Shown: piece by piece, positions 3,286 to 48,429 of the stretch
Numbering within the stretch: position 1 is the stretch's first letter
Layout of the letters: the number at the start of each line of letters is the position of its first letter
Origin: an uncultured Croceitalea sp.
GTDB taxonomy: Bacteria > Bacteroidota > Bacteroidia > Flavobacteriales > Flavobacteriaceae
NCBI GenBank assembly: GCA_947503285.1
Contig: CANNDD010000009.1
Coordinates: 62,001 to 126,000 of the forward strand
Reading direction: 5' to 3'
DNA length: 64,000 nt
Translations under genes and position numbers: made by a program
Notes under the pieces: model-generated
Told to the model about the DNA's origin: nothing
The model's database searches: none
The model's input: the letters and a program-made list of their open reading frames with translations, nothing else

Positions 3286-4095
3286 ATGAAAAAAATACTA
3301 TTGACAGTAACCGTATTTTTAGCGGTTACGGCTTGCAAAACAAATCCTTTTACAGGTAAGAAAATGTTGAATTTTTATGGTAATCAGCAGCTCTTTCCTA
3401 CGGCCTTTGCGCAATATGATCAATTTTTGACCGAAAACAAGGTCGTGACGGGTACCAAAGAGGCCCAAATGATTACTACAGTAGGGCAAAGAATAGCCAA
3501 AGCCGCCGAAACCTGGTTGAATGCGAACGGATATCCAGGCTACCTTAAGGATTATCAATGGGAGTACAATTTGGTCAATGACAAAACGGTGAATGCATGG
3601 TGTATGCCTGGTGGAAAAATTGTTTTCTATACCGGAATTCTACCAATTTGTCAAGACGAGACGGGGGTTGCCGTGGTCATGGGCCACGAGGTGGCACATG
3701 CCTTGGCGGATCATGGGGCACAACGGATGAGCGCCGGTACCTTGCAACAGTTGGGTGCCGTGGCAGGTAATGTTGCCATAAAGGATGAGAGTACCAGAAA
3801 CATGTTCAATCAAGCTTATGGCGTGGGGTCAAGTTTAGGGGTGATGTTACCTTTTAGCAGGAGCCATGAGACCGAGGCAGATAGAATAGGGATACAGATA
3901 ATGGCCATAGCGGGATACAACCCAGATGAGGCAGCCCGACTTTGGCAAAGAATGAAGGCCAATAGCGGCGGTCAAGCACCACCTGAATTTTTGAGCACAC
4001 ACCCTTCAAACGACACAAGGATCAACAATTTGACCGCTTGGGCACCAGCGGCGAAGCAAGAAGCAGCTAAATTCGGGGTAACGTCATTTAAATAG
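3286..4095 (+). CDS. M48 family zinc metallopeptidase, lipoprotein
   Basis: This 269-residue protein has a lipoprotein signal peptide ending in LAVTAC, so it is probably anchored in the outer or inner membrane facing the periplasm. The zinc site is the HEVAH motif (H134, E135, H138), with the third ligand E197 in SHETEAD. That is the M48 peptidase arrangement seen in BepA/LoiP-like periplasmic proteases that clear misfolded outer-membrane proteins. The C-terminal FLSTHPSNDTRI segment is also typical of that group. It stands as its own unit, with a terminator directly downstream. Confidence 0.9.
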   Translation: MKKILLTVTVFLAVTACKTNPFTGKKMLNFYGNQQLFPTAFAQYDQFLTENKVVTGTKEAQMITTVGQRIAKAAETWLNANGYPGYLKDYQWEYNLVNDKTVNAWCMPGGKIVFYTGILPICQDETGVAVVMGHEVAHALADHGAQRMSAGTLQQLGAVAGNVAIKDESTRNMFNQAYGVGSSLGVMLPFSRSHETEADRIGIQIMAIAGYNPDEAARLWQRMKANSGGQAPPEFLSTHPSNDTRINNLTAWAPAAKQEAAKFGVTSFK

Positions 4096-4123
4096 TGTGA
4101 CCGTTATTTTAAAAGATTTGATG

Positions 4124-4151
4124 AAGCTGCCCGCCTATGGGCAGCTTTTTT
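4124..4151 (+). terminator. Rho-independent terminator after the M48 peptidase gene
   Basis: A perfect 9-bp stem (AAGCTGCCC / GGGCAGCTT) with a 6-nt loop is followed by a run of T. It starts 28 bases after the stop codon of the M48 gene and ends just before the MFS gene. Confidence 0.8.
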
Positions 4152-4163
4152 TATTTTTAAGAC

Positions 4164-5492
4164 ATGACAAAAATATTGGCCCTTAAGGGGGAGAAGAAAT
4201 TACTGAATGCCTGGGCATTTTATGACTGGGCGAATTCGGTGTATAGCCTAGTGATTTCCTCAGCGGTGTTTCCCATATTCTATGGGGCCTTGTTCCGTGT
4301 TGCAGAAATAGAAAAAGTCACCGTTTTTGGTGGGGAAATAGCACGGGCGCCCTTGATAAGCTATGTGACCTCGGCAGCTTTCGTATTTATCGCTATCGTT
4401 ACCCCTTTAGTATCCGGTATTGCCGACTATTTAGGGAATAAAAAGATATTTTTAAAATTTTTCTGCTATTTGGGGGCGGCATCCTGCATTGGGCTATATT
4501 GGTTCTCATTGGAGCATATTTATTTTGGCCTCATTTGCTATTTCTTCGGATTGGTAGGGTTTTGGGTCAGCTTTGCCATAAACAACTCGTACCTGCCTGA
4601 TATCGCATATCCTGAACAACAAGACGGTGTTAGTGCCAAAGGCTTTTCCCTTGGATATATCGGCAGCGTGATCTTACTGCTTTTTAATCTTGCCATGGTC
4701 ATGAAACCAGATGTTTTTGGTATTACCAATGAAGGAGGAGAGGTCGCTGAAATAAAGGCTATGAAGTATTCTTTTGTGACCGTGGGAATCTGGTGGGTCC
4801 TTTTTAGTCAATACACCTTTGCCCATTTGCCAAAAGGATATAAGCGCGATGGGGAACGTAAAAACATCATTTTAAATGGGTTTAAAGAATTGAAAAGTGT
4901 TTGGGCACAACTTGGTAGTCAAATACGGCTAAAACGCTATTTAGGGGCGTTTTTCGTATACAGCATGGCGGTACAGACCATCATGTTGATAGCTACTTAT
5001 TTTGGTGAGGAAGAAATAAACTGGGGTACTGACAATCAACGTACAACGGGTCTGATCGTAAGTATTTTGGTCATTCAAGTCGTTGCCATTCTTGGCGCCA
5101 CCGTCACGGCACGCGCCTCTAAGGTATTTGGTAATATCAAAACCCTGATCGTGGTGAACGTGTTTTGGATATTGCTTTGTGTCTATGCCTATTTTTTACA
5201 GACGCCAACTGATTTTTATATAGCTGCCGGATTGGTTGGAATAGTTATGGGTGGTATTCAGGCCTTATCCCGCTCAACCTATTCGAAGTTTCTTCCTGAC
5301 ACTACGGATACGACATCCTTTTTTAGCTTCTACGACGTCGCTGAAAAAATCGGTATTATTATCGGGACCCTAATGTACGGTATCATTGCACAACTTACGG
5401 GGAGCATGCGAAATAGCACGATTTTTTTGGGACTCTTCTTTTTAGTCGGTGCATTTCTATTGACCAGGGTGAATAAAAAACCCCGACCATAG
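4164..5492 (+). CDS. MFS transporter of the UMF1/Atg22 family
   Basis: This is a 442-residue polytopic membrane protein with about 12 hydrophobic segments. The N-terminal motif AWAFYDWANSVYSLVISSAVFPIFY is the hallmark of the Atg22-like (UMF1) major facilitator family. The GGIQALSRSTYSKFLPDTTDT..FFSFYDVAEKIG segment in the second half is also typical. Fungal Atg22 exports amino acids from the vacuole; bacterial substrates are not known. The gene's stop codon lies inside the downstream terminator hairpin. Confidence 0.87.
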   Translation: MTKILALKGEKKLLNAWAFYDWANSVYSLVISSAVFPIFYGALFRVAEIEKVTVFGGEIARAPLISYVTSAAFVFIAIVTPLVSGIADYLGNKKIFLKFFCYLGAASCIGLYWFSLEHIYFGLICYFFGLVGFWVSFAINNSYLPDIAYPEQQDGVSAKGFSLGYIGSVILLLFNLAMVMKPDVFGITNEGGEVAEIKAMKYSFVTVGIWWVLFSQYTFAHLPKGYKRDGERKNIILNGFKELKSVWAQLGSQIRLKRYLGAFFVYSMAVQTIMLIATYFGEEEINWGTDNQRTTGLIVSILVIQVVAILGATVTARASKVFGNIKTLIVVNVFWILLCVYAYFLQTPTDFYIAAGLVGIVMGGIQALSRSTYSKFLPDTTDTTSFFSFYDVAEKIGIIIGTLMYGIIAQLTGSMRNSTIFLGLFFLVGAFLLTRVNKKPRP

Positions 5493-20719: not shown

Positions 20720-21301
20720 TCAACCGTGAATGGTTTCCTTGTTACCTAGGTTTTTCATGATGTTTGCCTCATAATCGAGAAGGTTTCGCCACTTTTCATC
20801 TACTTCTTCCCGGTCTCCGTACTGACGTGCAAATTGTAAAAACATGGTATAATGTCCTGCCTCACTGATCATCAGTTTTCTATAGAATTCTGACAGTTCC
20901 TTATCTTCCAATTCTTCTGAAAGCAACCTGAAACGTTCACAGCTTCTTGCCTCTATCAAAGCGGCATACAGCAATCGATGCACCAATTGGGTTGTTCTAC
21001 TCCCACCTTTTGGGAAGAATTTTAAAAGTTCGACAACATAGTCATCCTTTCGATCTCGCCCTAAAGTACCACCGCGCGCGAGGATTAGATCATGGACCAT
21101 TTTAAAGTGCCCCATCTCTTCACGTGATAACGCGATCATTTCTTGGATCAACTCGGTGTACTCAGGAAAGGAAACGATTAAGGAAATAGCCGTGCTTGCT
21201 GCCTTTTGTTCACAATATGCATGATCGGTCAGTATCTCATCGATATTTTTCTCAACGATGTTCACCCATCTGGGATCGGTAGGTAATTTGAGTCCTAACA
21301 T
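20720..21301 (-). CDS. miaE: tRNA-(ms2io6A37)-hydroxylase, MiaE-like
   Basis: This diiron ferritin-like protein of 193 residues hydroxylates the isopentenyl side chain of A37 in tRNA. Metal ligands are visible in EQKAAS, EEMGHF and EARSCERF...ISEAGHYTMF. I chose the start at 21301 (MLGLKLPTDPRWV), the usual beginning of the family; the frame also opens 32 codons upstream but that stretch covers the intergenic promoter region. The gene is convergent with ppk1, with only two bases between stop codons, and divergent from the ebo cluster. Confidence 0.9.
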   Translation of the reverse strand: MLGLKLPTDPRWVNIVEKNIDEILTDHAYCEQKAASTAISLIVSFPEYTELIQEMIALSREEMGHFKMVHDLILARGGTLGRDRKDDYVVELLKFFPKGGSRTTQLVHRLLYAALIEARSCERFRLLSEELEDKELSEFYRKLMISEAGHYTMFLQFARQYGDREEVDEKWRNLLDYEANIMKNLGNKETIHG

Positions 21302-21381
21302 AACTGTTTTCTTGAGCTTAAAGACTTCAAAGATAACCGTTATTGTGGTTTCCGATAAGAACATATCCGCACAAGTATGAT

Positions 21382-21389
21382 TATATTTG
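21382..21389 (+). promoter_or_regulatory. Candidate -7 element for the ebo cluster
   Basis: TATATTTG matches TAnnTTTG 46 bases before the eboA ATG. No good -33 TTTG lies 19 nt upstream, so this is only a candidate. Confidence 0.35.
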
Positions 21390-21435
21390 TGTATCACTTT
21401 TTTAAGTAATAATCTACTAAATCCAATCTAGCGAA

Positions 21436-22293
21436 ATGCCTTATTCGAATTCGGGTGATATACTGTCTGAAATACTTGAAAAAAATGGTTCTAAAGAAGA
21501 AAAACAGTGGATATTCGATAAAATCGATTTAATCGTTCAAGAGCTATCCGTCAAAAAATTCTACATGGCCTATACGCGCTGCGCCTCAAAAGTTGAAAAA
21601 CGGGTGCTTGATTTCAAGGGTTTTGATGAAAATAAGACTGTTGCCTATTTAAAAGAAAAGGGTGCAAATACCTTGGAGTTGGCACGCACCTTTATGCTTG
21701 TTAGGATATTGGAATCGAATTTTGATTTTTTTGAGGATAAAGTACGCAACATTATCGGGATAGCCGATACCTCTGAATTGGAGACACTATTGAAATACTT
21801 GGTTTTATTGCCAAATGCCGGGAATTTTAAATTTGCCGCTGTCGAGGCACTTCGCACCAATATTGCCACGATTTTTGATGCCATCGCAATGAACAACCCA
21901 TATCCCGCTCTTTATTTCAATACACAACAATGGAATCAAATGTATTTGAAAGCGGCCTTTATGCAACGCGATTTGTCACAAATCGTGGCTGTAGATAAAA
22001 TGGCTAATAAGGAATTGGCACGGATTATCTCAGATTATGCCCATGAGCGCTGGGCGGCATCACGAACCATAGACCCTGAATTTTGGAGGCCCGTTTCAAA
22101 TTTTTTGGAAGGTCAAACGTTAGAGGATATGATACGACTTTTTGAAAGCGATAATCCAATTGAAAGAAATGCTGCGGCTCTGGTCTGTTACCATTCAGAT
22201 AAGAGTAAGGCAAAAGAATTATTGGATGGTTATCCATCCCTAAGAAACGAAATAGAAAAGGAATCCCTCACCTGGAAAACTTTGAAACGATAA
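21436..22293 (+). CDS. eboA: EboA domain protein
   Basis: This 285-residue, mostly helical soluble protein has no signal peptide. It matches the EboA family in having the helical N-terminal half and a C-terminal HEAT-like end (WAASRTIDPEFWRPVSNFLE...ERNAAALVCYHSD). It is the first gene of a complete ebo cluster, with 2 bases to eboB. The molecular role of EboA is not known. In cyanobacteria the ebo genes are needed to move the scytonemin monomer to the periplasm. Confidence 0.85.
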   Translation: MPYSNSGDILSEILEKNGSKEEKQWIFDKIDLIVQELSVKKFYMAYTRCASKVEKRVLDFKGFDENKTVAYLKEKGANTLELARTFMLVRILESNFDFFEDKVRNIIGIADTSELETLLKYLVLLPNAGNFKFAAVEALRTNIATIFDAIAMNNPYPALYFNTQQWNQMYLKAAFMQRDLSQIVAVDKMANKELARIISDYAHERWAASRTIDPEFWRPVSNFLEGQTLEDMIRLFESDNPIERNAAALVCYHSDKSKAKELLDGYPSLRNEIEKESLTWKTLKR

Positions 22294-22295
22294 CA

Positions 22296-23204
22296 ATGGA
22301 AGAGAAATTACATTTTATTGACCCCCATATTCATATGACATCACGAACAACCGATGATTATGAGGCGATGGCAAAGGCTGGTATAGTGGCCATTATCGAA
22401 CCTTCTTTTTGGTTAGGACAACCCCGGACCCAAGTGGGTTCGTTTCAAGATTATTTTAGTAGTCTCGTAGGCTGGGAGGCCTTTAGGGCCAGTCAGTTCG
22501 GTATTAAACATTACTGCACCATAGGGCTCAATTCAAAAGAGGCGAATAACGAGGCGTTGGCGGAGCAGGTAATGGAATTGCTTCCACTTTACCTCCAAAA
22601 AGAAAATGTGGTCGCAGTGGGTGAGATAGGTTATGATGACCAAACCCCAGCAGAGGATAAATACTTTAGGGAACAGCTTGAGCTCGCCAAGGAATTCAAT
22701 ATGATGGTTCAAGTGCATACCCCACATCGCGATAAAAAGGCAGGCACCTTAAGAAGTATGGAAGTCTGTTTAGAACATGGTCTTGACCCAAGTAATGTGG
22801 TCATAGACCATAACAATGAAGAAACCGTTCAAGATGTTCTGGACAAAGGTTTTATAGCGGCCTTCACCATTTACCCGAAAACAAAAATGGGAAATGAGCG
22901 TATGGTCGAGGTGGTCAGAAGGTTCGGTAGTGCCAACATCATTGTCGATAGCTCCGCTGATTGGGGCGTGAGTGATCCCTTAGCGGTACCCAAAACGGCA
23001 AATCTGATGCTTCAAAGGGGAATTGCGAAAGAAGATGTTGTCAAAACCTGTTACCTAAATGCATTGGATACTTTTGGCAAGTCCGGTAAAATGAAAGAAG
23101 CGCACTGGTTGACCCCAGAGGCAATCGATCAAAGAAAGCTATTTCATGACAACAGCGTTTTAAGGGGTCAAGAACCTAAGGTAGAGCGCGACAAAATCGT
23201 TTGA
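22296..23204 (+). CDS. eboB: EboB, TatD-family metal-dependent hydrolase
   Basis: This 302-residue amidohydrolase-fold protein has the N-terminal metal motif FIDPHIHMTSRT, then VAVGEIGYDD, a His pair in VQVHTPHRDK and VIVDSSADWG near the C-terminus. That gives the TatD-like TIM barrel with its metal ligands in place. The last four bases overlap eboC, so translation is coupled. The position between eboA and a UbiA-type protein fixes it as EboB rather than a housekeeping TatD DNase. The substrate is unknown. Confidence 0.87.
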   Translation: MEEKLHFIDPHIHMTSRTTDDYEAMAKAGIVAIIEPSFWLGQPRTQVGSFQDYFSSLVGWEAFRASQFGIKHYCTIGLNSKEANNEALAEQVMELLPLYLQKENVVAVGEIGYDDQTPAEDKYFREQLELAKEFNMMVQVHTPHRDKKAGTLRSMEVCLEHGLDPSNVVIDHNNEETVQDVLDKGFIAAFTIYPKTKMGNERMVEVVRRFGSANIIVDSSADWGVSDPLAVPKTANLMLQRGIAKEDVVKTCYLNALDTFGKSGKMKEAHWLTPEAIDQRKLFHDNSVLRGQEPKVERDKIV

Positions 23205-24088
23205 TGGGTCAAAAAACGAAAGCTTTTTTGCAGTTATGCCGACCGGCAAATTTACCCACATCGGCTGCTGATATTTTGGCAGGCCTCGCGTTGGCAGGTT
23301 TTTTTGATCACTTCACAATTGAGTTGGGCCCATTGGGTGGGCTACTGGTCCTTTCCTCTATTTTTTTATATGCTGGCGGTGTCGTTTTGAATGATGTTTT
23401 TGATATTGAATTGGATAAGGTAGAGCGACCTGAAAGACCGCTCCCCAAAGGAGTAATCAAAATTGGGGAAGCTCGAATTTTTGGATTCGGCTTGTTGGTC
23501 ATTGGATTGGCACTTGCTTTTTTAGTTACCACTATGAGTGGGATAATAGCGGCAATTTTGGTGTTTTTTATTTTGACCTATGATAGTTACTCAAAGAATA
23601 GAAAAGTATTGGGCCCCTTGAATATGGGTATTTGCAGAGGAATGAATTTGCTATTAGGAATGTCTGTTTTTGCAGAATTGGTGCATTTTAAATACGCTAT
23701 AATCCCAATAATTTATATCGCTGCGATTACCATGATAAGTCAAGGAGAGGTGAATGGAAATAACAAAAAGAACATTGTTTTTGCAGGTATCTTATATCTG
23801 ATTGTAGTTGTAATCGTATTATACTTCAATACCGATTTTGTTTCAAATCTTGGTGTAAGTCATATATTCGTACTCGTTTTTATACTTTCTATCGGTATTC
23901 CTTTAACAAAAGCGTACCTTAAGAATACACCATCAAATATTAAAAAGGCTGTAAAGGCGGGCGTGATTTCAATTATTCTTTTAGATTCTGTAATTGCCGT
24001 TGCACATTCCAATTTCGCAATTGGCCTTGTAATATTGGCTTTGTTGCCGGTATCGATTGTATTATCAAAAGCTTTTGCGGTAACTTAG
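23201..24088 (+). CDS. eboC: EboC, UbiA-type prenyltransferase
   Basis: This 295-residue membrane protein has about nine hydrophobic helices. The first Asp-rich UbiA motif is in VLNDVFDIELDKVERPERPLPKG, and the second region reads FILTYDSYSKNRKVLGPLNMGICRGMNLLLG. UbiA enzymes attach a prenyl chain to an aromatic acceptor at the inner membrane. Both catalytic motifs look intact, so an active prenyltransferase is plausible. The acceptor is unknown. It starts with an ATG overlapping the eboB stop. Confidence 0.9.
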   Translation: MMGQKTKAFLQLCRPANLPTSAADILAGLALAGFFDHFTIELGPLGGLLVLSSIFLYAGGVVLNDVFDIELDKVERPERPLPKGVIKIGEARIFGFGLLVIGLALAFLVTTMSGIIAAILVFFILTYDSYSKNRKVLGPLNMGICRGMNLLLGMSVFAELVHFKYAIIPIIYIAAITMISQGEVNGNNKKNIVFAGILYLIVVVIVLYFNTDFVSNLGVSHIFVLVFILSIGIPLTKAYLKNTPSNIKKAVKAGVISIILLDSVIAVAHSNFAIGLVILALLPVSIVLSKAFAVT

Positions 24089-24097
24089 TTTGATTTT

Positions 24098-25261
24098 ATG
24101 AAACTTCCTTCCATATCACAGTCATTTACGGTCAATTACGACTATAAACTATACTTTACGACAGGGCTATTTGATACTTCAAACGCCCTATTCGTAAATC
24201 TTATCGGTAATTATCAAACTGAGGGGCAGGTTAAATGTGTTTTTATACTGGATAAAGGGGTTGTAGATGCCAACAACCAGCTTTTAGGGCTAATTGAGGA
24301 GTACTGTTCATTTTACAGGTCTAAAATCGATGTAAAAGGGATAATTACGATACCCGGAGGTGAGGAAAGTAAGAATAATCAAGACAACGTCACCAAAATT
24401 TGGAACGCAATCAACGAAAAAAGTATTTGTAGACATTCTTTTGTTGTGGCTATAGGTGGTGGTGCCCTAATTGATATGGTCGGTTATGCAGCTACCACGG
24501 CTCATAGGGGCGTAAAATTAATTCGAATACCAACAACCGTCTTAGCACAAAATGATGCGGCAGTAGGTGTGAAAAATAGTATCAACGCATTCGACAAGAA
24601 AAACTTCATTGGCACATTTGCGATTCCTTATGCTATTATAAATGACTTTGATTTTTTGAAGACCCTTGAACAACGTGACTGGATTTCGGGAGTTGCCGAA
24701 GGTTTAAAGGTCGCTTTGATAAAAGATGAACCCTTTTTTAACTTTATTGAAACCAATGCACATAACTTGGCGAATAGGGAGCTAGAAGCGATGGGACCTT
24801 TAATACATCGCTGTGCTGAAATTCATATGCAACACATCGGGCAAGGTGGAGATCCCTTCGAAAATGGATCTTCTAGGCCCTTGGATTTTGGACACTGGGC
24901 AGCCCATAAGTTGGAACAGATGACCGGTTATAAGCTAAGGCATGGGGAGGCGGTGGCCAAAGGCATAGCTTTAGATGTAACTTATGCATATTTAATAGGT
25001 CTTGTAGAACTAGCGACATTGAATCGAATTTTAAAGGTGTTCAGGGAGATAGGTTTTGACCTGACACTGCCCGTTGAAGGGGAAAAGGCTGTTAACGAAC
25101 TGCTTAAAGGCATTGAAGAGTTTAGGGAACACCTAGGGGGGCAATTGACTATTACGTTGATTTCCGGAATCGGTTCCAAACATGATGTACATGTAATGGA
25201 TAGGGATAAAATGGTGGAAGCGATTGCCATGAGAACCATCGAAAAACACGAATCGAATTAG
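24098..25261 (+). CDS. eboD: EboD, sugar-phosphate cyclase (dehydroquinate synthase superfamily)
   Basis: This 387-residue enzyme has the NAD-binding glycine loop VVAIGGGALIDMVGYAA and metal ligands in GVAEGLKVALIKDE, RPLDFGHWAAHKLE and LRHGEAVAKG. These are the marks of the dehydroquinate synthase superfamily. The GGDPFE...RPLDFGHW.AHKLE segment differs from ordinary AroB (usually LNFGHTFGHAIE). It recalls sugar-phosphate cyclases that use other C7 substrates, so the product may be a cyclitol and not dehydroquinate. The stop codon is adjacent to the eboE start. The ebo assignment is strong; the reaction is inferred. Confidence 0.87.
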   Translation: MKLPSISQSFTVNYDYKLYFTTGLFDTSNALFVNLIGNYQTEGQVKCVFILDKGVVDANNQLLGLIEEYCSFYRSKIDVKGIITIPGGEESKNNQDNVTKIWNAINEKSICRHSFVVAIGGGALIDMVGYAATTAHRGVKLIRIPTTVLAQNDAAVGVKNSINAFDKKNFIGTFAIPYAIINDFDFLKTLEQRDWISGVAEGLKVALIKDEPFFNFIETNAHNLANRELEAMGPLIHRCAEIHMQHIGQGGDPFENGSSRPLDFGHWAAHKLEQMTGYKLRHGEAVAKGIALDVTYAYLIGLVELATLNRILKVFREIGFDLTLPVEGEKAVNELLKGIEEFREHLGGQLTITLISGIGSKHDVHVMDRDKMVEAIAMRTIEKHESN

Positions 25262-26455
25262 ATGTTAGTATCAAATTTTTACCATACCACCTATTGTACT
25301 AATATTCACCCTGGTGAAGACTGGAAAACTACATTCGATAGTTTAAAAAATTATGTTCCCCTTATCAAGTCCCAGGTTTCTAAAACCCAGGAATTCGGTT
25401 TGGGGTTACGATTGTCTAATAAAGCAAGCGAAGAACTAGGGTTCGGATCAAAATTACAGGAGTTTAAAGATTGGTTGACCGCCCATCAAATCTATATATT
25501 CACAATGAATGGATTTCCTTATGGAAATTTTCATGGTGAGGCCGTAAAAGATAAGGTGCACCGGCCAGATTGGACGACCCAAGAAAGGGTTGACTATACG
25601 ATACGATTGTTTAAACAGCTTAATTTTCTATTGCCAGAAGGTATTTCTGGGGGCATTTCAACTTCCCCCATTTCATACAAGCATTGGTATTCCAGTGAAG
25701 AAGAACTTGACCATGCAAAAAAAGTTGGTGCCCAAGGTATGATAGCAGTGGCCTTGCGATTGTATCAAACTGAAAAGGAAACGGGAAACTATTTGCATCT
25801 TGATATCGAACCGGAACCTGATGGAATTCTTGAGAATAGTGATGAGGTGATTTCTTTTTTCAAGGAGTACCTTATTCCCATTGGAGTGGATAGATTTAAA
25901 AAGGAATTCGGTATTCCTAATGACAATGCGGAACGTATTATCAAAAGGCATCTTACGATATGTTATGACATTTGCCATTTTTCACTGGCGTATGAAGAGC
26001 CAGAACATACGTTTCAAAAGTTCTTGGGAAATGACATTAAAATTGGAAAAATTCAGGTCAGTGCTGCTTTAAAAGTACTTTTCAACGAAACCGATAATCA
26101 GCACATTTGGGAGAGCCTTTCGAAATTTAACGAACCGACCTATCTACATCAGGTCACGGAACTTAGTGACGAAGGGGTGAAAACACATGCTGATTTACCT
26201 GAACTACTAGAGAAAAAAGGGCATAGGGCGCAACTAAGGGCACATTTTCATGTACCCATATTTCTTCAAAAGTTTCCGCCTTTGTATTCCACTCAGGATC
26301 ATATACTAAAGGTCATCGACTATCTTAAGAAGAACAAGATATGTGACCATCTCGAGATTGAGACCTATACTTGGGATGTACTTCCCATTGACTTAAAAAC
26401 AGCACTTTCCGATTCGATTATACGTGAAATCAACTGGTTGAAAGAAAGATTGTAA
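25262..26455 (+). CDS. eboE: EboE, xylose isomerase-like TIM barrel protein
   Basis: This 397-residue protein opens with the typical YHTTYCTNIHPGEDW segment. It has TIM-barrel features, including LHLDIEPEPDG, ICYDICHFSLAYEEP, QVSAAL and the final HLEIETYTWDVLP, with metal-ligand-like Glu, Asp and His on successive strands. It is the EboE metabolite traffic protein of database naming, related to sugar-phosphate isomerases/epimerases. Its start directly follows the eboD stop. An enzymatic role on a sugar-like intermediate is plausible but unproven. Confidence 0.88.
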   Translation: MLVSNFYHTTYCTNIHPGEDWKTTFDSLKNYVPLIKSQVSKTQEFGLGLRLSNKASEELGFGSKLQEFKDWLTAHQIYIFTMNGFPYGNFHGEAVKDKVHRPDWTTQERVDYTIRLFKQLNFLLPEGISGGISTSPISYKHWYSSEEELDHAKKVGAQGMIAVALRLYQTEKETGNYLHLDIEPEPDGILENSDEVISFFKEYLIPIGVDRFKKEFGIPNDNAERIIKRHLTICYDICHFSLAYEEPEHTFQKFLGNDIKIGKIQVSAALKVLFNETDNQHIWESLSKFNEPTYLHQVTELSDEGVKTHADLPELLEKKGHRAQLRAHFHVPIFLQKFPPLYSTQDHILKVIDYLKKNKICDHLEIETYTWDVLPIDLKTALSDSIIREINWLKERL

Positions 26456-26456
26456 C

Positions 26457-27836
26457 ATGAAAAAAACGGTAGTCATCAATGTGGTGGGCCTGACCAAACG
26501 CTTGATTGGGGAGCACACCCCGTTCTTAAGGTCTTTTCTAGCGTCTGGCCATAGTGGTTTTGTAAAACCCGTACTGCCTGCCGTTACCTGTACGGCGCAG
26601 TCGACGTACCTTACGGGTAAATGGCCCTCGCAACATGGGATAGTGGGTAACGGTTGGTACTTTAAAGAGGAATGTGAAGTAAAATTTTGGAGGCAGTCGA
26701 ATAAGCTGGTTCAGGCACCTAAACTTTGGGAGAAGTTGAAGGAAGAACATAGCGATTTTAGTTGCGCGAACATGTTTTGGTGGTACAATATGTATTCAAC
26801 CGTTGATTACAGTGTTACCCCAAGGCCTAATTATTTGGCCGATGGTCGCAAGATTCCTGATGTATATTCCCATCCTTCCCAACTTAGGGACACACTTCAG
26901 GATAAATTGGGTACATTTCCACTATTTCATTTTTGGGGACCAAAAACGTCCATAAAATCGAGTCAATGGATTGCTGATGCTACTGTGGAGATGGATAAAT
27001 TACATGATCCCACGCTAACCTTGGTGTACCTACCGCATTTAGATTACAATCTACAACGCTTTGGGCATGACTTTAAAATCATTTCAAAAGACCTACGAGA
27101 GATTGACCATGTAGTTGAAGGTTTGGTCGATTATTATCAAAAAAGGGATGCCAATATCGTCATCTTGTCAGAATATGGAATTACTGATGTAAACCATCCC
27201 ATTCATCTAAATAGGGTATTGCGTCAAAATAACCTTATCGCCATTCGTGAAGAACGCGGATTGGAATTGTTTGATGCTGGGGCAAGTGCAGCTTTTGCCG
27301 TCGCAGACCATCAAGTCTGCCATATTTATGTGAAAGACAAATCGAAAGTAGAAGAGGTAAAAGAACTGATTGAAAATGTTGAGGGTGTAGAAAAGGTTTT
27401 TTCCAAAACAGAATCATCACAGATTAAATTAGACCATGAACGTTCTGGGGATTTAATTGCAGTTGCCGATAAAGACTCATGGTTCACGTATTATTTTTGG
27501 AATGATGATAAAAAAGCACCTGATTTTGCCAGAATGGTCGATATTCATAAAAAACCGGGGTATGACCCCGTTGAGATGCTTACCGACCCCAACGACAATT
27601 TGGTAATGCTAAAGGTGTTATGGAAGCTTCTAAAGAAGAAAATCGGCTTTAGAAGCGTATTGGATATTATACCTTTGAATGCCGATTTAATCAAAGGATC
27701 GCATGGCAGGTTACCTGAAAGCACCCTTGATTATCCCATTTTAATCTCAAATGCTAAAGATATAGTTGTTAAAGAAGAGCTGGAAGCTATTGAAGTTTTT
27801 GATATTTTAGAGCAACATATAAAACAACCAACATGA
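26457..27836 (+). CDS. eboF: EboF, nucleotide pyrophosphatase/phosphodiesterase family
   Basis: This 459-residue alkaline-phosphatase-superfamily enzyme has the nucleophile region PAVTCTAQSTYLTGKWPSQHGIVGNGWYF, the metal-ligand region VYLPHLDYNLQRFGHD, then ILSEYGITDVNHPI and a late GSHGRLP. These are the NPP-type two-metal motifs. No signal peptide is seen, so it probably acts in the cytoplasm, unlike many NPPs. It closes the ebo cluster; a membrane-protein gene overlaps its stop by four bases. A diphosphate or phosphodiester intermediate of the ebo product is a likely substrate. Confidence 0.87.
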   Translation: MKKTVVINVVGLTKRLIGEHTPFLRSFLASGHSGFVKPVLPAVTCTAQSTYLTGKWPSQHGIVGNGWYFKEECEVKFWRQSNKLVQAPKLWEKLKEEHSDFSCANMFWWYNMYSTVDYSVTPRPNYLADGRKIPDVYSHPSQLRDTLQDKLGTFPLFHFWGPKTSIKSSQWIADATVEMDKLHDPTLTLVYLPHLDYNLQRFGHDFKIISKDLREIDHVVEGLVDYYQKRDANIVILSEYGITDVNHPIHLNRVLRQNNLIAIREERGLELFDAGASAAFAVADHQVCHIYVKDKSKVEEVKELIENVEGVEKVFSKTESSQIKLDHERSGDLIAVADKDSWFTYYFWNDDKKAPDFARMVDIHKKPGYDPVEMLTDPNDNLVMLKVLWKLLKKKIGFRSVLDIIPLNADLIKGSHGRLPESTLDYPILISNAKDIVVKEELEAIEVFDILEQHIKQPT

Positions 27837-28183
27837 ACAAGTTCTTAAAAATTCTGGCTTTTGTCTTTATGGCACTTTTTAGTTATGCCGCGGTTGTACA
27901 ACACAATGATCCCGATGCGGTTAAGTGGTATGCCATATACGGCATGGCGGCTTTTGCTTCACTACTATTTGCCCTTGGCAACCTTCGTCTTTTTTGGGCA
28001 TTGCTATTGGCAATCTTTTATTTTGGTCTCGCCATATACACTTGGCCTGAAAAATTTGAGGGAGTGACTATAGGTGAAGGTGATATCGTAAATATCGAGC
28101 GGGGTAGGGAGGCGTTAGGTCTGCTTATTGCAGGCATCGCAATGTCAATTTATGTCATTGCCAATCGCACGCGTAGTAACTGA
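27833..28183 (+). CDS. TMEM220-type small membrane protein linked to ebo
   Basis: This 116-residue protein has about four transmembrane helices (LKILAFVFMALFSYAAVVQ; WYAIYGMAAFASLLFAL; FWALLLAIFYFGLAIYTW; LGLLIAGIAMSIYVIA). The VQHNDPDAVKW segment is the hallmark of the transmembrane 220 family. Its ATG overlaps the eboF stop (ATGA), so it is translated with the ebo cluster. It faces dnaX tail to tail with no gap. The role is unknown. Confidence 0.82.
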   Translation: MNKFLKILAFVFMALFSYAAVVQHNDPDAVKWYAIYGMAAFASLLFALGNLRLFWALLLAIFYFGLAIYTWPEKFEGVTIGEGDIVNIERGREALGLLIAGIAMSIYVIANRTRSN

Positions 28184-29932
28184 CTATAAATCTAAATCGA
28201 ATTCTTTTCTCAGCAAGTCGAGTGCTGGATTTTTTTCCCGCAATTTTTCGTATTTCTCCTCAGGGGTAAATGCGAATTTTTTGGCCGCTTCTTCATTGAC
28301 GGTAATCGAAAGGGTAATGAAGTGGTTGTTTAGTTCGTCTTTTAGAAAATTGAGCATTAGGCTTTGTTCGCGCTCAACTTCTTTTTTCATGGTAGAATTG
28401 GGTAGTTCAATCCATATGGTATAATCCTCCTTCAATTTCGGAACATCGGCCTGCAAGTTTGCAGCCAATATCTTCTTTCCCTGATCTTCCAGTTTTTCAA
28501 CAAATGTTGCCCAAAGGCTTTGCATGTTAGCTTCTTCAAAAGGTTCTTTGGGCAAGTCAACCATTTTGGTGTGGTCAACCTTTGAATTTTGATGCTCTTT
28601 TTTGGCCTTAAGGCTAGATATGGATAGGCCAGAGACCCTATTCGGCAAATTTTTAAGTTCTATTTTTTTAGCTACCGGCTTGGGCGGGGTGTCGGAAGGT
28701 TGAATTTCTTTTTTGACGGGTATTTCGGTAGTTTGAATTACTTCCTCTGTATTTTTTTCGATATGCGGGGCAGTAACTGTAGACTCATCTGAGATAGTGT
28801 ATGATGATGCCTTTTGAAAGGGTTGCCCCTTAAAATAAGTAGCTGGAATTATAAATTCAGGCTTTTTTTTTTCAGCGTCAAAGTCGATGGAGGCCAATTT
28901 CATCAAGGTAAGTTCAACCAATAAACGTTGATTTTTACTTGTCTTGTATTTCAGATCACAGTCATTGGCCAAATCCAGCGCTTTTAGATAGAAATCCTTT
29001 TTGGCTTTTTTGGCTTGTTCAAAATAAAGGGTTTTGGTACCCTCACTTACCTCTAATAGACTTAGGGTCTCTTGATGCTGGCACACGATTAAATCCCTAA
29101 AGTGTGACGCAAGGCCAATAATGAAGTGATGTGCGTCAAAACCAAGGGCCAGTGTACTGTTTAAAAGCAACAACAGTTCTGGTATCTTATTTTCAAGAAT
29201 AAAATCCGTGGTCTTAAAGTAGACCTCGTAGTCCAATACATTTAGATTTTCGGTAACGGCCTTTCTCGTTAAGTTCTTCCCAGAAAAACTGACCACCCTA
29301 TCAAAAATGGATAAGGCATCACGCATGGCACCATCCGCTTTTTGCGCAATGATATGCAAAGCATCCTCTTCGGCATCAATTCCCTGTTCCTTTGCGATAT
29401 ACTGCAAGTAATTTGCGGCATCTTTGACTGTAATCCGTTTAAAATCAAATATTTGACAACGTGATAATATGGTTGGTATAATTTTATGCTTCTCCGTTGT
29501 CGCTAAAATGAAGATAGCGTGTTTTGGAGGCTCTTCAAGGGTTTTCAAAAATGCATTGAACGCAGATTGCGATAACATATGTACCTCATCAATGATGTAG
29601 ACCTTATAGTTGCCCACCTGAGGTGGAATTCGAACCTGATCGGTAAGGTTTCTGATATCATCAACGGAATTATTCGAGGCGGCATCCAATTCAAAAATGT
29701 TGAAAGCGTAATCCTCATCGGTACCTTCAGAACCCTCTTCATTGATTTTCTTTGCCAAGATACGCGCACAGGTTGTCTTGCCAACACCTCTTGGGCCACA
29801 GAAAAGAAGTGCTTGTGCCAAGTGATTATGGGCAATGGCATTTTCAAGTGTATCGGTAATGGCTTGTTGTCCGACAACATCTTTAAAGGTTTGCGGACGG
29901 TATTTTCTTGCCGATACTACAAAGGGTTCCAA
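28184..29932 (-). CDS. dnaX: DNA polymerase III subunit gamma/tau
   Basis: This 582-residue clamp-loader ATPase opens with VSARKYRPQTFKDVVGQ, then Walker A GPRGVGKTTCARILAKKIN, Walker B IDEVHMLS and the SRC segment (TILSRCQIFDFKRI). The C-terminal tau-like region includes a Pro/Lys-rich linker. The four-cysteine zinc module normally between Walker A and the DAASNN motif is absent; the stretch reads NEEGSEGTDEDYAFNIFELDAASNNSV. No slippery A-run with frameshift is needed for a tau-length product. Confidence 0.95.
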   Translation of the reverse strand: MEPFVVSARKYRPQTFKDVVGQQAITDTLENAIAHNHLAQALLFCGPRGVGKTTCARILAKKINEEGSEGTDEDYAFNIFELDAASNNSVDDIRNLTDQVRIPPQVGNYKVYIIDEVHMLSQSAFNAFLKTLEEPPKHAIFILATTEKHKIIPTILSRCQIFDFKRITVKDAANYLQYIAKEQGIDAEEDALHIIAQKADGAMRDALSIFDRVVSFSGKNLTRKAVTENLNVLDYEVYFKTTDFILENKIPELLLLLNSTLALGFDAHHFIIGLASHFRDLIVCQHQETLSLLEVSEGTKTLYFEQAKKAKKDFYLKALDLANDCDLKYKTSKNQRLLVELTLMKLASIDFDAEKKKPEFIIPATYFKGQPFQKASSYTISDESTVTAPHIEKNTEEVIQTTEIPVKKEIQPSDTPPKPVAKKIELKNLPNRVSGLSISSLKAKKEHQNSKVDHTKMVDLPKEPFEEANMQSLWATFVEKLEDQGKKILAANLQADVPKLKEDYTIWIELPNSTMKKEVEREQSLMLNFLKDELNNHFITLSITVNEEAAKKFAFTPEEKYEKLREKNPALDLLRKEFDLDL

Positions 29933-41285: not shown

Positions 41286-41750
41286 TTATTGCTGGGTAAG
41301 TTCGACTTGAACCGCTTTATCGTTAACCTCTCTAAGGATAAAATCTGTTTTTTTTACTTCAAACCTATTGCTTTTCAATCTTGCAAAAGAAAATTGTTCT
41401 CTCTTAATAGGCAAACATTTCTTTATGTTGCCCTTCTCCATGGAAATAATGAGATAAACACCTTCGGCTACATCAATATAATCACTATTTACTCTCTCTT
41501 CATAATAGAATGTCTCGGAGAAACCATCTATTTCTTCTTTTATATTGACCAAGGGATAATACGGAGGAAAAATATAAAATACATCATCTCCTTTAAATAA
41601 TTTGTCAGCCGAAACCGATTCTTCCATTGAGTTTAATAACTCATTCTTAAAGGATTTCTCATCTTCTATATTTCTATTAAAACTTTTTTTATTGGTACAG
41701 TTAACTGCCAACAAAAGTATTATCATCAGTTTTATCTTTTTAATTATCAT
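41286..41750 (-). CDS. Lipoprotein, candidate immunity protein 1
   Basis: This protein of about 154 residues has a lipoprotein-type signal (MIIKKIKLMIILLLAVNC) and an acidic, Lys-rich mature part. I chose the ATG at 41750, which lies inside the end of the large RHS gene and overlaps its TAA by 11 bases; an ATG at 41780 is also open but puts ten residues before the signal. This tight coupling to the RHS toxin end is the usual position of the cognate immunity gene. No family is recognised. Confidence 0.65.
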   Translation of the reverse strand: MIIKKIKLMIILLLAVNCTNKKSFNRNIEDEKSFKNELLNSMEESVSADKLFKGDDVFYIFPPYYPLVNIKEEIDGFSETFYYEERVNSDYIDVAEGVYLIISMEKGNIKKCLPIKREQFSFARLKSNRFEVKKTDFILREVNDKAVQVELTQQ

Positions 41751-44700
41751 CGTCATATCCGTCTGTATCACCATCTTCATATAGTTGTTCCGTTTTATTT
41801 TTAGCCTTTTCAGTTCTATTTTGTTTTAAAGAAGATTCTTCTAGTTTCCCTGTATTTGGATTAATTACCATAAGTTCTCCGTTAGCAATCATGTCAATTA
41901 TCAAAAGCATTAGTTCTTTTGGGTCTGCATCAGGATTGTCAAGTCCAAGTTGTATACCAACTTCATTGTTGAATAAATCCATTGCTCTTTGATTTTCTCC
42001 AAAATCATTGCCTTCTTCATGAGCTTGGCCTATACCTCTTGCAAATTCTTCTCCTGAAGTTTGGGTATTCAATGCCGACCACAATGCATGTCTTGCCGCA
42101 TCAACACCATCATTATTATTTGGATTATTTATATCCGTTGGCACCCCAGAGTTAGAAGCAAATCGACTTGCAATTTTATCATTATTACGAGCCTTGAAAG
42201 AAACCATTTCATTTCTTCCAATAAATTTCGCTTCAGCAACCGACAAGTTTCCATTTGCAACCTCATTTTGTAGACGGCTGTTCACAAAAACGTTACTAGA
42301 AAATGCACTTCTATTTTTATTTTTTTCTGTGGCCAAACTTATTCTAACCGGTTCTAAACCTTCCAATTCGACTGCATCTATCAGTCTATTTCCACTAAAA
42401 ACATAGGGCCCCCAATCCATATAATCTTCGGTTAGCGGATCCACTTGCCAGAACCTTCCAATTGCAGGGTCGCTCACACGGTACCGCCACTCATGGGTGT
42501 TAAGCCCCAAGTCTTCAGTGAATTCCTGATCTTGATAGGTCTTCAGATCGTTTTTTACGCCATTGAGAGCGGAATTGTATCCCTTATGCTCCAATCCAAA
42601 GGGGAAATAATTCTGCTCCCTTCGTATCTCGTTTGATGGGTCGATGTTCCCATCCGAATTGTCATCCGCAAAAGTAATCCGCACATTGTTCTGATGGTCT
42701 TTTAAATAGTACACGTACTGCCATGAACTACTATTGGGTTCGATAAAACCTTCTGGATGACTTATCTGTTTAAGAGTTCCACCCTCGTACACGAAATTAC
42801 CTGCGTAATCCGTGGTCGTGCCATTACTGTTCATCTTCCTGACCTTAGCTCCTGTGGCATCGTAGATATAATCCAACGTACCTGCATTTGAACCCGTTAC
42901 CGTTACCTTGGTCGGCATGTTCAGGTGGTTGTACTCCACAGAGGTTATCTTCTTGTTATCATCACGTACCATGTTCCCGTTCTGGTCAAATTGATACTCA
43001 GTGGCGTTCTCTGCTCCCTCAATAAAGCCCGTTACCGCACTTGCCGCCGTCGCATCATCAATAGATTTCAACTGGTTGCCCGTGTATTGATAGGTAAGAT
43101 CATCCATTAGGCCAAAGGTCGATGCGTTCATGTTCCTGTGGCCGTTCCTTTTTAATTTGGTGATATTTCCCCCCAGATCGTATTGTACGTCCAAAAGACT
43201 GTACCTCTGATCGGCGGTGTTGTCGATGGCGGAAACAATCCTGTCCATCGCATCATGGCTGTATCTGTACCATCGCAACTGGTTGTCGTTGGCCGTTTTC
43301 CATTCCGTCTCCGCAATGTTCCCATTGTAGAGCGCGGTGCCTCCGTGGGTCGGATTGTTATAATTTATGCTAAACGCAAAGAGGTCGTTCCCAAGATTAG
43401 AGGGATCGTTAATGGATTTGATCCATCCCCTTACATTATAATTGTAATCTACCGTTTGTAAGCCGGTAGTATTCACATAGCTGTTACTTGGGGTACCGCC
43501 GACTATTTTGGCCTGCAATTGCCCCAGTTCGTCGTAATCGTTATAAACGATGAGTTCGCTACCCGTATTGCCACTGCCCCCGGTTGCATTGGGGTCAACA
43601 CGAAGGGTCGCGGTGCCACTGATGGTAGTAACCGGGCGGGTCGTGATGCTGTTGGTTGCGACACGTTCGTTGGTCACGGTCTCATTTTCAATGAATATAT
43701 CTGCCGGTACACCGTTTGTGGGGCAACTGTCGCCCAAACTCCCGTCACCGATACATTGGGTCTGGGCCAACAAACGTCCTATATGGTCATAGGTAAAGTT
43801 GTCAATGGTGACGATAGTGTTTCCATCTCGGGTATGGGTCGTTTTTACCTTGGTGGGCCTGCCTATAAAATCCAATTGTGATGCTACAATATCCACCGTA
43901 TTAAGATAATCATTTTTACTATGGGAGTAAATGGGCCGTGCCTTATCGTCATAATAAACAGCAGTCGTGATAAAATCGTTGGTACCCAAGACCTTCACGA
44001 GGTTCACCGTTGAAAGGCCCTGCACCTTTGTGGTACTGGCCAAACCAAATGCACTAGCGGTCACGGGCATACCATCACGTACCGTATTGTACGTATCGTA
44101 ATAATTAACGGTATGCAATTCTTTATAGCCGCTGGCGGGGTAGCCATCATTAGAGTAATATACATTGGTATTGTCGATGACCACAAAAGAATCGTCTCGG
44201 GCATCTACCCAAGTTTGCACCACGCTGTTGTTCACATCATTTTGCAAACCTATACGTGATCCATTGTTTTCGAGCATGCCCGTATAAGCGACCCTGCCAA
44301 AAGGGTCGTATTTGGTAAAGAGCCATTCATCGCTAGTGAGATTGGTATTGTTCACTGCACGCATATTGGCATCTTGGGTCAATATGGGCTGATCCAAACT
44401 ATTGTAAACGATATATTCTTCCCCTTTACCCGGCAGTTGTTTAACGACCAAACGGTTACGGTTGTCATAGGTGTATTGGTAGCATAGCGCCGCCAACTCT
44501 TCAGTAGATACACCATCATCAATATCGACTTTTGGGGGCAATACATAGGTAAGGTTGCCATAGTCATCATAAACGTAATAGGTATCGTGGGGCACCTCAG
44601 ATGCACCATCCATATCGGCATAGGTGCGTTTTAAGACCACTTGCCCGTTTTTATCCGTAAACTCTTCAATAGTATGGTTTTTGCCCGAGGTGTGGTTCTC

Positions 44701-47700
44701 GTCAAAGGTCACATTTTTGTACAGCTCTCCAGCCGGGTATTCCGCGTTTTCTTCCAGTGTAGGGGTATAGGTGATTACAGAGGCCGTTGTCTGGGGGCTG
44801 GTGGTCACATAAAAGAGCTTGACACCGTCGGCGATGGTATTGGTCTCATACCCAAACCCAATTTCATGCCCTTGCCCTAAGGCCCAATCATTGCCCGGTG
44901 CCGCTTGCTGCTCTACGCGGTTAAGCGGTGAGGCCTCAAAACCTTTTTCTGAAAATGGGTTAAGGGTATTTTCATATTTAGGGGCGTTGTAATACTCCTC
45001 TACGGTATTTTCGATACCTAAGCGTAGGGTACCCAAATTACCATCGGTAGTTGGTACTGGCAGCCATTCTTTTGGCATACGCCCAAAATCGTCATAGGCC
45101 ATATGTGAAACAATGTCGTTCTTATTGGGGCTGTGGTCCATACCAATCTGCTGTATCGCCCGGCCCAAACCATCAAAATAAGTGATGCTTTGAATGAGGC
45201 TATCATTTTCGGTAAAGAAGCCCGGGTCTATTTGCGTATTGCTGGGTTCTTGATATGTTCTTGAATAGACATAGTTGTCTCCGGTAAGAATATCACTTTC
45301 AAAAGTTTCACCACACGGATAGTTGGAACAGAAATTAGCACTATCACCTGGGCACGGGTCATCGTTATTATCGACCCAATTTCGACCATCATTTGGTGGT
45401 TGACAACCGACGTCGGTATCCCCGTCTGGCTCTCCCAGATCATCCCCATCTGCATCTACATACCATTTGATTGCCGTGATCGTTGGGTCGGTATCATCAC
45501 AATCAACTACCGCATACGGTTGGGATTTCCATTTCGCCTCATCTGGGGTGCCCAAACCGGGATTTTGGCAATCGGGTCGAAACGAACCTTCTAAGGGAAA
45601 GTCATCGTTATCGCCATCGAACCACCAGTTTTGCGCCCCTAAAATACTGGGGTCGGTATCATCACAATCATTAGGGCGTGCCTCTGGGTTTTCTTCAATA
45701 ATCAATGTATAATCGTCATAGTTATCGTTGGGGGGGGTACAACCTACTTGGTATCCATTCGGACCCTTATAAGTATCATCGTCTTCATCATGCATCCATA
45801 ACGAATCGGGGTTAATGTGAATATCATCGTCATCGCAATCCCCTAAAGGAAGCACATTGGCCGTATACCCTGGACCAGGATTAGAACAACTTTCTAAAAT
45901 GGAAATTGCAAAACCATCATTGTCAGCATCTAAATAAAATGGTATTTGAGCAGTTACGGTAATTGGAAAATCTGCATCTTTTGTCTGGCAACCATTATTG
46001 ACGGTTACCTGTATAGTTGCGGGGCCAGAATAGGTAGCATTCCACTCCAAATCACCTGTATTGGCATCAATAGTAGAAACTGCGTTAGGGGGATCGACCG
46101 ACCAATTACTATAGGTTAAATTGTCAAATTCATTGGCATTGCTGACCGTAGCGCCATAGTCATAGCCTCCGGCCCCTTCGCATCGCGAGGTGGGGCCAAT
46201 TAAGGTGATGGTACCTATGGCCTCCATGGCACGCAGGGTAACTTGTGCCGGTTGCGTTATTCCGCAGAGATCTTCTGCCTCTACCGTAACTACTTGTGAA
46301 CTGCCGGCTGATAGGGTCACACTGGTCGTAGTACCGGTATCACCGGTGCTCCATACCGCGTTTGAACCATTTGTGGCCAATGTGAATGCTTGACCCGGAC
46401 AAATATTCTCGATTATGGGTGAGCCGTCACCAATGCGAACTTCACCACCTGATTTTGTGCCTATATTCAAGACCCCGGCCATTGGTATGGAACTACAGAT
46501 TCCATTCGAAGCTTCCACACGATAAGTACTTCCACTATTGATGTTGCTCCAAGTAAGTACCTCTCCAGTGCCCTGTTGTACTGGAATCCCAGTGGTTGAA
46601 TTGTCTTTATACAATTGATAGTCGACCTCTGGTTCTGAATCTGATAGTGTAATGCTATCGGTGAGGTTGGCGCATATTTCAGTTGGCCCGTTCAAAGTGT
46701 ATATTTGAGGGGGATCCACTATTTCAATATCAAATGTCCTGGTTTTTTCTGTTCCGCAACTTCCTATTGCAGTGACTTCTATGGTCGCCGTTCCTGAAAA
46801 GGAATTGTTCCAGTTAACCGTACCAGTACTGGTATTGATGGTTCCGGCACCAGGGGTGACCATCCTCCAGCTATAACCTGAGGCATTGCTTGTAGATGCG
46901 TTGTAATCGGTATTCGGCGGGTTTACGCATAGTTCCCCTTCATACGGATCGATAGAAATCGTACCCAGTGCAGGAAGTACGGTCAGATTGATGGTCTTGT
47001 CCTTAATTTCATCGCAATCGTCATAGGCCCTTAAGGTGTAGGTGGTCGTACCTCCAGCTGGCGGGCTTACATTTTGGCTTGTTGAACTGCCCAGGGTATT
47101 CCCGTTTTCATCCAACCATTCAATAATGCCCAGTGGTCCGAAATCTTGGGCAAAAAGGGTAATAAGACCTTGATCTGGGCAAATTGCATTATAATTGGTT
47201 GGTGAGGTAGTAATTCTTAACGGTTTCGCAGATTTGGTAATCACGGTTATCGAATTGGTGTTGACCGGGGTGCAGCTTCCATCCGCATAATAGGCCTCTA
47301 CATAATACGTTCCCGCTGAAATATTGGTGCCCCAAATAATATCCGGGCCATTTGAGGTTCTAAAAGAACCAATTTCTTGCGCACCCTTTTTTAACTGATA
47401 GCGAACACCTGATTGCGAGCCCACCATGGTAATTTGGCCAGATTGGTTCACACAGGTTCCTTCTGCCGGGGTGGTCAATGTTCGTTGGTCAATACCCGGG
47501 GTGACGGTAACCGTGACCGTTCTTTTGGCACTTTCACATCCATTTACCGTTGCAGAAACCCTGTAGGTATAGTTACCTGGGCTATTTAATGTTCCCGTAC
47601 CATAGGTGGCTCCTGTGCCTAATAGGCCGTTGCTGCTGTTGTACCACTTGTAAATGGGATTGCCGCTTACCCCTGAAGCCGTTAAAAATGTACTTCCACC

Positions 47701-48411: not shown

Positions 48412-48429
48412 GCTGAAATGGACTTTAGT

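Follow-up and report, generated by a model that had tools for sequence, protein, structure and literature searches.

The window analysed here, a stretch of 64,000 nucleotides from an uncultured Croceitalea sp. (Flavobacteriaceae; contig CANNDD010000009.1, positions 62,001 to 126,000 of the forward strand), carries the ebo gene cluster eboABCDEF. Its six open reading frames (ORFs) lie on the + strand and span exactly positions 21436-27836, with intergenic gaps of 2, −4, 9, 0 and 1 bases from eboA to eboF. A first-pass annotation, made from the sequence alone, had described a six-gene eboA-F cluster at these positions with gaps of −4 to 9 bases, and this was confirmed by the ORFs and by Pfam and NCBIfam matches. 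Comparison with clusters of other lineages showed that the cyclase EboD is exchanged there for the unrelated myo-inositol-1-phosphate synthase (MIPS), together with a small xylose-isomerase-like (sugar-phosphate isomerase-like) protein (SPI), while EboB, EboC and EboF stay. This exchange is what the present analysis adds to a known cluster, whose genes are the following (DHQ, dehydroquinate; NPP, nucleotide pyrophosphatase/phosphodiesterase):

eboA, 21436-22293, + strand: all-helical protein, probable alpha-solenoid scaffold; NCBIfam EboA domain.
eboB, 22296-23204, + strand: metal-dependent hydrolase of a family close to, but distinct from, TatD; Pfam TatD_DNase, 63.6 bits.
eboC, 23201 (TTG) or 23204 (ATG) to 24088, + strand: UbiA-type membrane prenyltransferase.
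eboD, 24098-25261, + strand: sugar-phosphate cyclase of the DHQ-synthase superfamily; Pfam DHQ_synthase, 127 bits.
eboE, 25262-26455, + strand: xylose-isomerase-like TIM-barrel protein; NCBIfam TIM_EboE.
eboF, 26457-27836, + strand: NPP/alkaline-phosphatase-type phosphohydrolase; Pfam Phosphodiest, 220 bits.

The start of eboC is probably the ATG at 23204, within a TGATG shared with the eboB stop codon. Sixteen proteins of the window were taken into the family scan. Pfam cut-offs were passed by EboB (TatD_DNase), EboC (UbiA), EboD (DHQ_synthase) and EboF (Phosphodiest), and the AP_endonuc_2 match of EboE remained under its cut-off. With NCBIfam models, EboC reached 349 bits on prenyl_rel_EboC and EboE 476 bits on TIM_EboE (cut-off 250 for both), and the best match of EboD was PRK06203, with 537 bits (cut-off 333). 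EboA passed the domain model NF035938 (145 bits, cut-off 50); on the narrower EboA_family model NF035937 it scored 164 bits, under its cut-off of 320; that cut-off serves for naming, and membership of the family is tested by the domain model. Six families being found in one direction and tightly spaced, the cluster is a further member of the known ebo operon kind, and not a new one. It has the same six families and the same order as the ebo operon of Bacteroidota and eustigmatophyte plastids (PMC5133447).

The operon was named in 2016, when an isoprenoid-cyclitol product was proposed, with sedoheptulose 7-phosphate as the likely substrate of EboD, and the order ABCDEF was taken as ancestral in Bacteroidota (Yurchenko et al. 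2016, PMC5133447). Planctomycetes and Leeuwenhoekiella sp. MAR_2009_132 are reported in the same paper to have no eboD. Nostoc punctiforme shares the gene families of the window, in a cluster that serves scytonemin: in each ebo deletion studied, eboD not being among them, the scytonemin monomer stays cytoplasmic; a prenyl-cyclitol lipid carrier was suggested (Klicki et al. 2018, PMC6282210). Ebo genes are also contained in the EDB cluster of Pseudomonas fluorescens, which is needed against nematode grazing (PMC6282210). Lastly, EboC of Maribacter, Zobellia and Algoriphagus (UbiA-297, an ebo-cluster EboC by that paper's own account) was assayed alone and on aromatic acceptors (Moghaddam et al. 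2022, PMC9235831); in these membrane assays it transferred farnesyl to 8-hydroxyquinoline-2-carboxylic acid. The first-pass annotation had missed these assays when it called the product in Flavobacteria unknown, a statement that still holds. Its reading of the product as a prenylated cyclitol was already in print in 2016 (PMC5133447); the gene identities on which it was based stand, and its cyclitol half gains support from the exchange described below.

The same annotation had named the absence of any other aroB or tatD in the genome as the observation that would speak against a dedicated cluster. Both are present: the genome (4.34 Mb, 29 contigs) contains a second DHQ synthase (148.9 bits) and a true TatD (244.9 bits), as well as three further UbiA proteins. 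On profiles that had window proteins among their seeds, this AroB scored 133 bits versus 643 for the window EboD, and this TatD 22 bits versus 532 for the window EboB. Given the separate copies and the low profile scores, the ebo copies are not the housekeeping ones.

Glu, His and His are the metal ligands in the sugar-phosphate cyclase superfamily, and E201, H266 and H282 of the window EboD were found invariant in 8 EboD proteins, as were D153, K159 and K204. Ahead of the metal His, the AroB of the genome reads RKALNFGH and EboD SRPLDFGH, an R to S and an N to D change, this D being invariant in the 8 EboD. In DHQ synthase structures, the Arg and Asn of AroB bind the carboxylate of 3-deoxy-D-arabino-heptulosonate 7-phosphate (DAHP). 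Because they are Ser and Asp in EboD, the latter should not use DAHP, and is probably a cyclase distinct from the shikimate enzyme. EboC has the motifs NDxxDxxxD and ERPERPxPxG, and its first Asp-rich motif, NDVFDIELD, is as expected for UbiA. UbiA prenyltransferases have a second Asp-rich motif; the EboC loop possibly matching it reads GEVNGN, with E and G, not D, conserved in relatives, in a region where the alignment is uncertain. EboA was modelled with moderate confidence as an all-helical solenoid, from 39 rows in which the window protein shares 18-25% identity with the rest. Fold comparison matched it to many helical-repeat chains, none of them decisive for a HEAT/armadillo-like fold. 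An EboE profile compared by sequence with solved structures gave matches at chance level only. None of the six Ebo proteins matches a transporter family in Pfam or NCBIfam.

The exchange is seen in Streptomyces plasmid clusters, which contain an inositol-3-phosphate synthase, the EboC-like SCO3242 prenyltransferase, SPI, EboA, EboB, EboE and EboF, and no EboD: in these MIPS/SCO3242-type clusters five Ebo components are in common with the window, and MIPS with SPI replaces EboD. The listing of the calcium-dependent antibiotic (CDA) region of S. coelicolor includes both SCO3242 and the myo-inositol phosphate synthase SCO3243 (PMC3610822). Profiles built here were then scanned over actinobacterial, Bacteroidota and plasmid loci. 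The actinobacterial set consisted of the best 80 of at least 578 loci matching a Streptomyces EboE query, and is biased to near kin; an even draw of 246 Actinomycetota genomes gave 14 further clusters from 13 genomes, the cluster of the centre genome being left out; the Bacteroidota set comprised 36 loci, window included. When only loci with full flanks (6 kb or more to either side of eboE) were counted, MIPS was found in 57 of 61 actinobacterial loci and in 11 of 13 even-draw clusters, and EboD in none of either (0/61 and 0/13). Bacteroidota showed the reverse, with EboD in 33 of 34 loci and MIPS in 0 of 34. EboD was also present in 6/6 proteobacterial plasmid loci and in the single Deinococcus locus (1/1). 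Regardless of flank, the counts were 62/80 and 12/14 for MIPS in the two actinobacterial sets, and 35/36 for EboD and 0/36 for MIPS in Bacteroidota. Fisher's test on MIPS in 68 of 74 versus 0 of 34 loci gave 3×10−22, a figure made generous by the relatedness of the loci. Both even-draw exceptions were particular: L198 shares its genome with another cluster (L199) that does have MIPS, and in L211 eboE is broken. SPI accompanied the MIPS type (59 of the 61 full-flank actinobacterial loci), and no SPI was detected by profile in the EboD-type loci scanned, nor in one EboD-less locus scanned with them. In Ketogulonicigenium an annotated sugar phosphate isomerase adjoins the cluster, and gave no match with the SPI profile.

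No mention of an EboD/MIPS exchange was met in the open-licence literature searched, including the ebo work from 2017 on among the matches listed, and it may be in print elsewhere; the word "inositol" has 0 occurrences in each of the three main ebo papers (PMC5133447, PMC6282210, PMC9235831).

The MIPS of the clusters is, judging from its sequence, a dedicated enzyme. Six actinobacterial genomes each have a MIPS scoring 45-68 bits on the cluster-MIPS profile, and 5 of the 6 also have one or two cluster-type MIPS at 479-576 bits; when placed on a tree, the two types form fully separate groups (100/100). The best match of one Streptomyces cluster MIPS (L012) was the archaeal Ino1 1u1i, with 233 bits, and this protein keeps lysines at two sites that read alanine in chains 3qvw and 3qvx, which we take to be active-site mutants. 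A gene annotated as ScyD/ScyE family adjoins the ebo cluster of the same locus (3993-5192). As to the constancy of the other genes, no EboC match was obtained in six stretches (L132, L141, L147, L150, L152, L157), and an EboC over the cut-off was present elsewhere in each genome, so that EboC was found elsewhere in all 7 genomes searched, these six and the Bacteroidota genome G178 discussed below. EboA and EboB were also unmatched in L132 and L141, where the stretches were searched. The EboB motifs DPHxHM, GEIG, HTPH, DH and SADW are common to EboD-type and MIPS-type clusters, and long conserved blocks of both EboB and EboF are retained with either cyclase, which argues that their substrates should be alike.

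MIPS-type clusters were also encountered outside Actinomycetota. The gemmatimonad Gemmatirosa has EboG, EboB, EboC, EboE and EboF with MIPS and SPI, and no EboD. Its EboF groups with that of EboD-type Proteobacteria (100/98) and its EboB with that of EboD-type Deinococcus (100/100, on long branches). When all MIPS-type EboF were forced into one clade, the tree was rejected by the approximately unbiased (AU) test (p-AU 0.006, on 32 of 43 EboF rows, the group being defined by the cyclase, after the tree had been seen). As read from these sequences, the EboF tree thus implies more than one cyclase exchange. In four haloarchaeal plasmid loci (L173, L174, L175, L212), relatives of EboB, EboC and EboF were found with two SPI in 4/4 cases, and MIPS in 3/4, the fourth having none in the stretch scanned; no match to EboA or EboE was obtained in the four loci. 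As a control, a fifth haloarchaeal plasmid locus (L176) was found to have a UbiA of the geranylgeranylglycerol-phosphate type and no annotated ebo-like neighbours. Sugar or basic membrane protein (BMP)-type transport genes lie near L173, L174 and L175, and pyrroloquinoline quinone (PQQ)-dependent sugar dehydrogenase genes near L174 and L175.

One Bacteroidota genome, G178, has ebo genes and no EboD. Its cluster reads eboA-B-C-E-F, with some 135 bases between eboC and eboE, and an AroB-like protein (152 bits) is all that the EboD profile finds in this genome. G178 is one of 3 MIPS-bearing genomes among 35 Bacteroidota genomes with ebo; its MIPS and SPI lie 16 bases apart, away from the ebo cluster, and its SPI scores 268 bits on a profile of two Streptomyces SPI. 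In a scan of 392 Bacteroidota genomes, with a profile that included the G178 SPI itself, strong matches were obtained in 2 genomes, G178 (492 bits, by construction) and G195 (380 bits), the next match being at 74 bits; among 395 Bacteroidia genomes, a draw overlapping the 392, only G178 matched strongly. The chance that the only EboD-less ebo genome would be SPI-strong is about 2/392, a figure to be taken with caution, as we looked because of the hypothesis. The G178 EboF lies within Bacteroidota in the tree, and the MIPS of G178 and G195 form a group (99/93) separate from actinobacterial, gemmatimonad and haloarchaeal MIPS. The G195 stretch (L247, 6000-16400) holds, beside MIPS and SPI, an apparent glycosyltransferase, a PIG-L-type deacetylase and an oxidoreductase, all named by eye, a content reminiscent of mycothiol-type synthesis.

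Replacement of the ring-forming enzyme by an inositol-making one points to an inositol-like ring in the product. We favour, as rather probable, a reading in which the EboD cyclitol fills the role of inositol phosphate, EboC prenylates it, and the product is a membrane-bound prenyl-cyclitol. EboD would cyclise a sugar phosphate, giving a cyclitol (a six-membered ring with hydroxyl groups), and in other lineages the non-homologous MIPS, helped by SPI, would fill the same place in the pathway. EboE and EboB would then reshape the ring, the membrane enzyme EboC attach an isoprenoid, and EboF remove or cleave a phosphate, with EboA (or EboG) probably serving as a scaffold for the proteins. The membrane-anchored prenyl-cyclitol would help other small molecules to cross the membrane or be finished there, this export-aid role being proposed because of the Nostoc genetics in print. 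The cyclitol step is fairly well supported, whereas we infer that EboC prenylates that very cyclitol, as well as the order of the steps and the role in transport. The substrate of EboD may be a C6 or a C7 sugar phosphate, and the exchange with MIPS makes C6 more attractive than before. A wider claim, which we advance tentatively and which has less than an even chance, is that ebo is a widespread bacterial route, with a haloarchaeal variant, to a prenylated inositol-like membrane lipid, that EboD and MIPS (with SPI) were swapped more than once at its entry step, and that the EboD ring is inositol-like, and not derived from sedoheptulose as proposed in 2016. The ebo genes occur in many phyla and in algal plastids; if MIPS, an enzyme of known product, truly stands in for EboD, ebo chemistry becomes testable at once.

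Several observations weigh against this proposal. The MIPS cases come mostly from one phylum, and even there 4 of the 61 clusters have no MIPS in the stretch scanned (L055, L056, L057, L064), nor any Pfam match to a cyclase that could replace it among the frames scanned. Three of these genomes (L055, L056, L064) hold a cluster-type MIPS elsewhere (479-483 bits), and that of L057 holds only the other MIPS type. The Gemmatirosa EboC falls outside the EboD-type and haloarchaeal rows, and this cluster may, from its trees, be a mosaic. In Bacteroidota, the two MIPS-bearing ebo genomes other than G178 have MIPS as well as EboD. The MIPS and SPI of G195 are about 5 kb apart, in a stretch with no ebo gene and a genome with no EboE, which means that in G178, too, MIPS and SPI, being unlinked to ebo, may serve another pathway. 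UbiA enzymes mostly prenylate aromatic rings, and MIPS keeps the phosphate. Sugar-phosphate cyclases, on the other hand, lose it (PMC5133447), and the two products therefore cannot be identical. Finally, the acceptor that EboC homologues farnesylated in vitro was a quinoline (PMC9235831).

The difference in phosphate fate is also the starting point of the strongest alternative, in which MIPS and EboD clusters make different molecules, EboB, EboC and EboF accepting varied ring head groups, so that the exchange says nothing exact on the EboD product. The company of SPI, which goes with MIPS and is absent by profile from the EboD-type loci scanned (the annotated isomerase of Ketogulonicigenium apart), is in line with this, as are haloarchaeal loci with no EboA and EboE matches. 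Given that long blocks of EboB and EboF are kept in both types, and that, according to the EboF tree, exchange occurred more than once, we consider it unlikely. Another possibility is a farnesylated quinoline pathway fed by EboD, with 8-hydroxyquinoline-2-carboxylic acid, or an aromatic compound like it, as the acceptor of EboC. Three EboC homologues did carry out such a farnesylation in vitro; the assays used membrane fractions, which accepted 6 of the 14 aromatic compounds offered, and product levels were similar when the conserved Arg145 was replaced (PMC9235831). Nor does the replacement of EboD by MIPS fit a quinoline, and this explanation appears quite improbable. The Ebo proteins might also be a pure transport machine which itself carries a metabolite across the membrane, with no dedicated product, as could be read from the scytonemin monomer retained in the cytoplasm by every Nostoc ebo deletion studied, eboD not being tested (PMC6282210). 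We regard this as very improbable, since 5 of the 6 families are enzyme families with their conserved motifs kept and no transporter-family match, and the swap of unrelated cyclases implies that cyclase chemistry matters. Accidental clustering of housekeeping enzymes (shikimate, TatD nuclease), to which the database names would point, has next to no chance of being correct and was rejected, given the separate AroB, TatD and three other UbiA and the S and D of EboD in place of the AroB R and N.

A constant cargo pathway beside ebo was looked for as well and discarded, as no constant partner was seen: in a motif count with no control, 1 of the 80 actinobacterial loci had an NRPS (nonribosomal peptide synthetase) adenylation motif and 7 had a ketosynthase-like one. 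It is plausible that the cluster is self-contained.

In the even draw of Bacteroidota, EboE was present in 35 of 392 genomes, and the other listed genome of the window's genus was without it. Twenty of the 36 Bacteroidota loci, window included, have ABCDEF along one strand; recurrence of the same six genes in the same order means that the arrangement is not due to chance. The remaining 16 are split, divergent, reordered or incomplete within the stretch scanned, and in some Bacteroidota loci A-B-C and D-E-F are divergent or apart. A gene pair encoding a hypothetical protein and a "ferritin-like" one was found next to ebo in only a few loci, including those of Aureibacter, Mycetohabitans and one Bacteroidota genome (L009, L015, L137).

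In the window, the cluster is bordered by the following genes:

MiaE-like gene, 20720-21397, − strand: Pfam MiaE, 149 bits; divergent left border, excluded from the cluster.
TMEM220 gene, 27833-28183, + strand: Pfam TMEM220, 78 bits; 4-base overlap with eboF.
dnaX, 28184-29932, − strand: next after TMEM220; named by eye from the ORF.

The six genes that the first-pass annotation had called complete are thus all present, and it had stopped one gene early. The TMEM220 gene overlapping eboF is also an addition to the published account of the operon, TMEM220 having 0 occurrences in that paper (PMC5133447). In the family of the window, 149 genomes were searched, and 35 of them gave a TMEM220 match. 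Among 30 loci examined, the gene lay beside eboF in 18 and beside eboA in 3, and 5 had no ebo gene within 1.5 kb. TMEM220 is therefore a candidate seventh or accessory gene in relatives of the same family, as far as gene neighbourhood tells. In 4 of the 30 loci (L254, L258, L265, L276), MiaE, TMEM220 and dnaX adjoin one another and no ebo gene lies between them, which looks like an empty or emptied cluster site.

Elsewhere in the window, positions 41740-51897 encode two neighbouring proteins, one of 2223 aa with DUF6443, Ig-like and DUF6973 domains, the other of 1155 aa with an RHS repeat.

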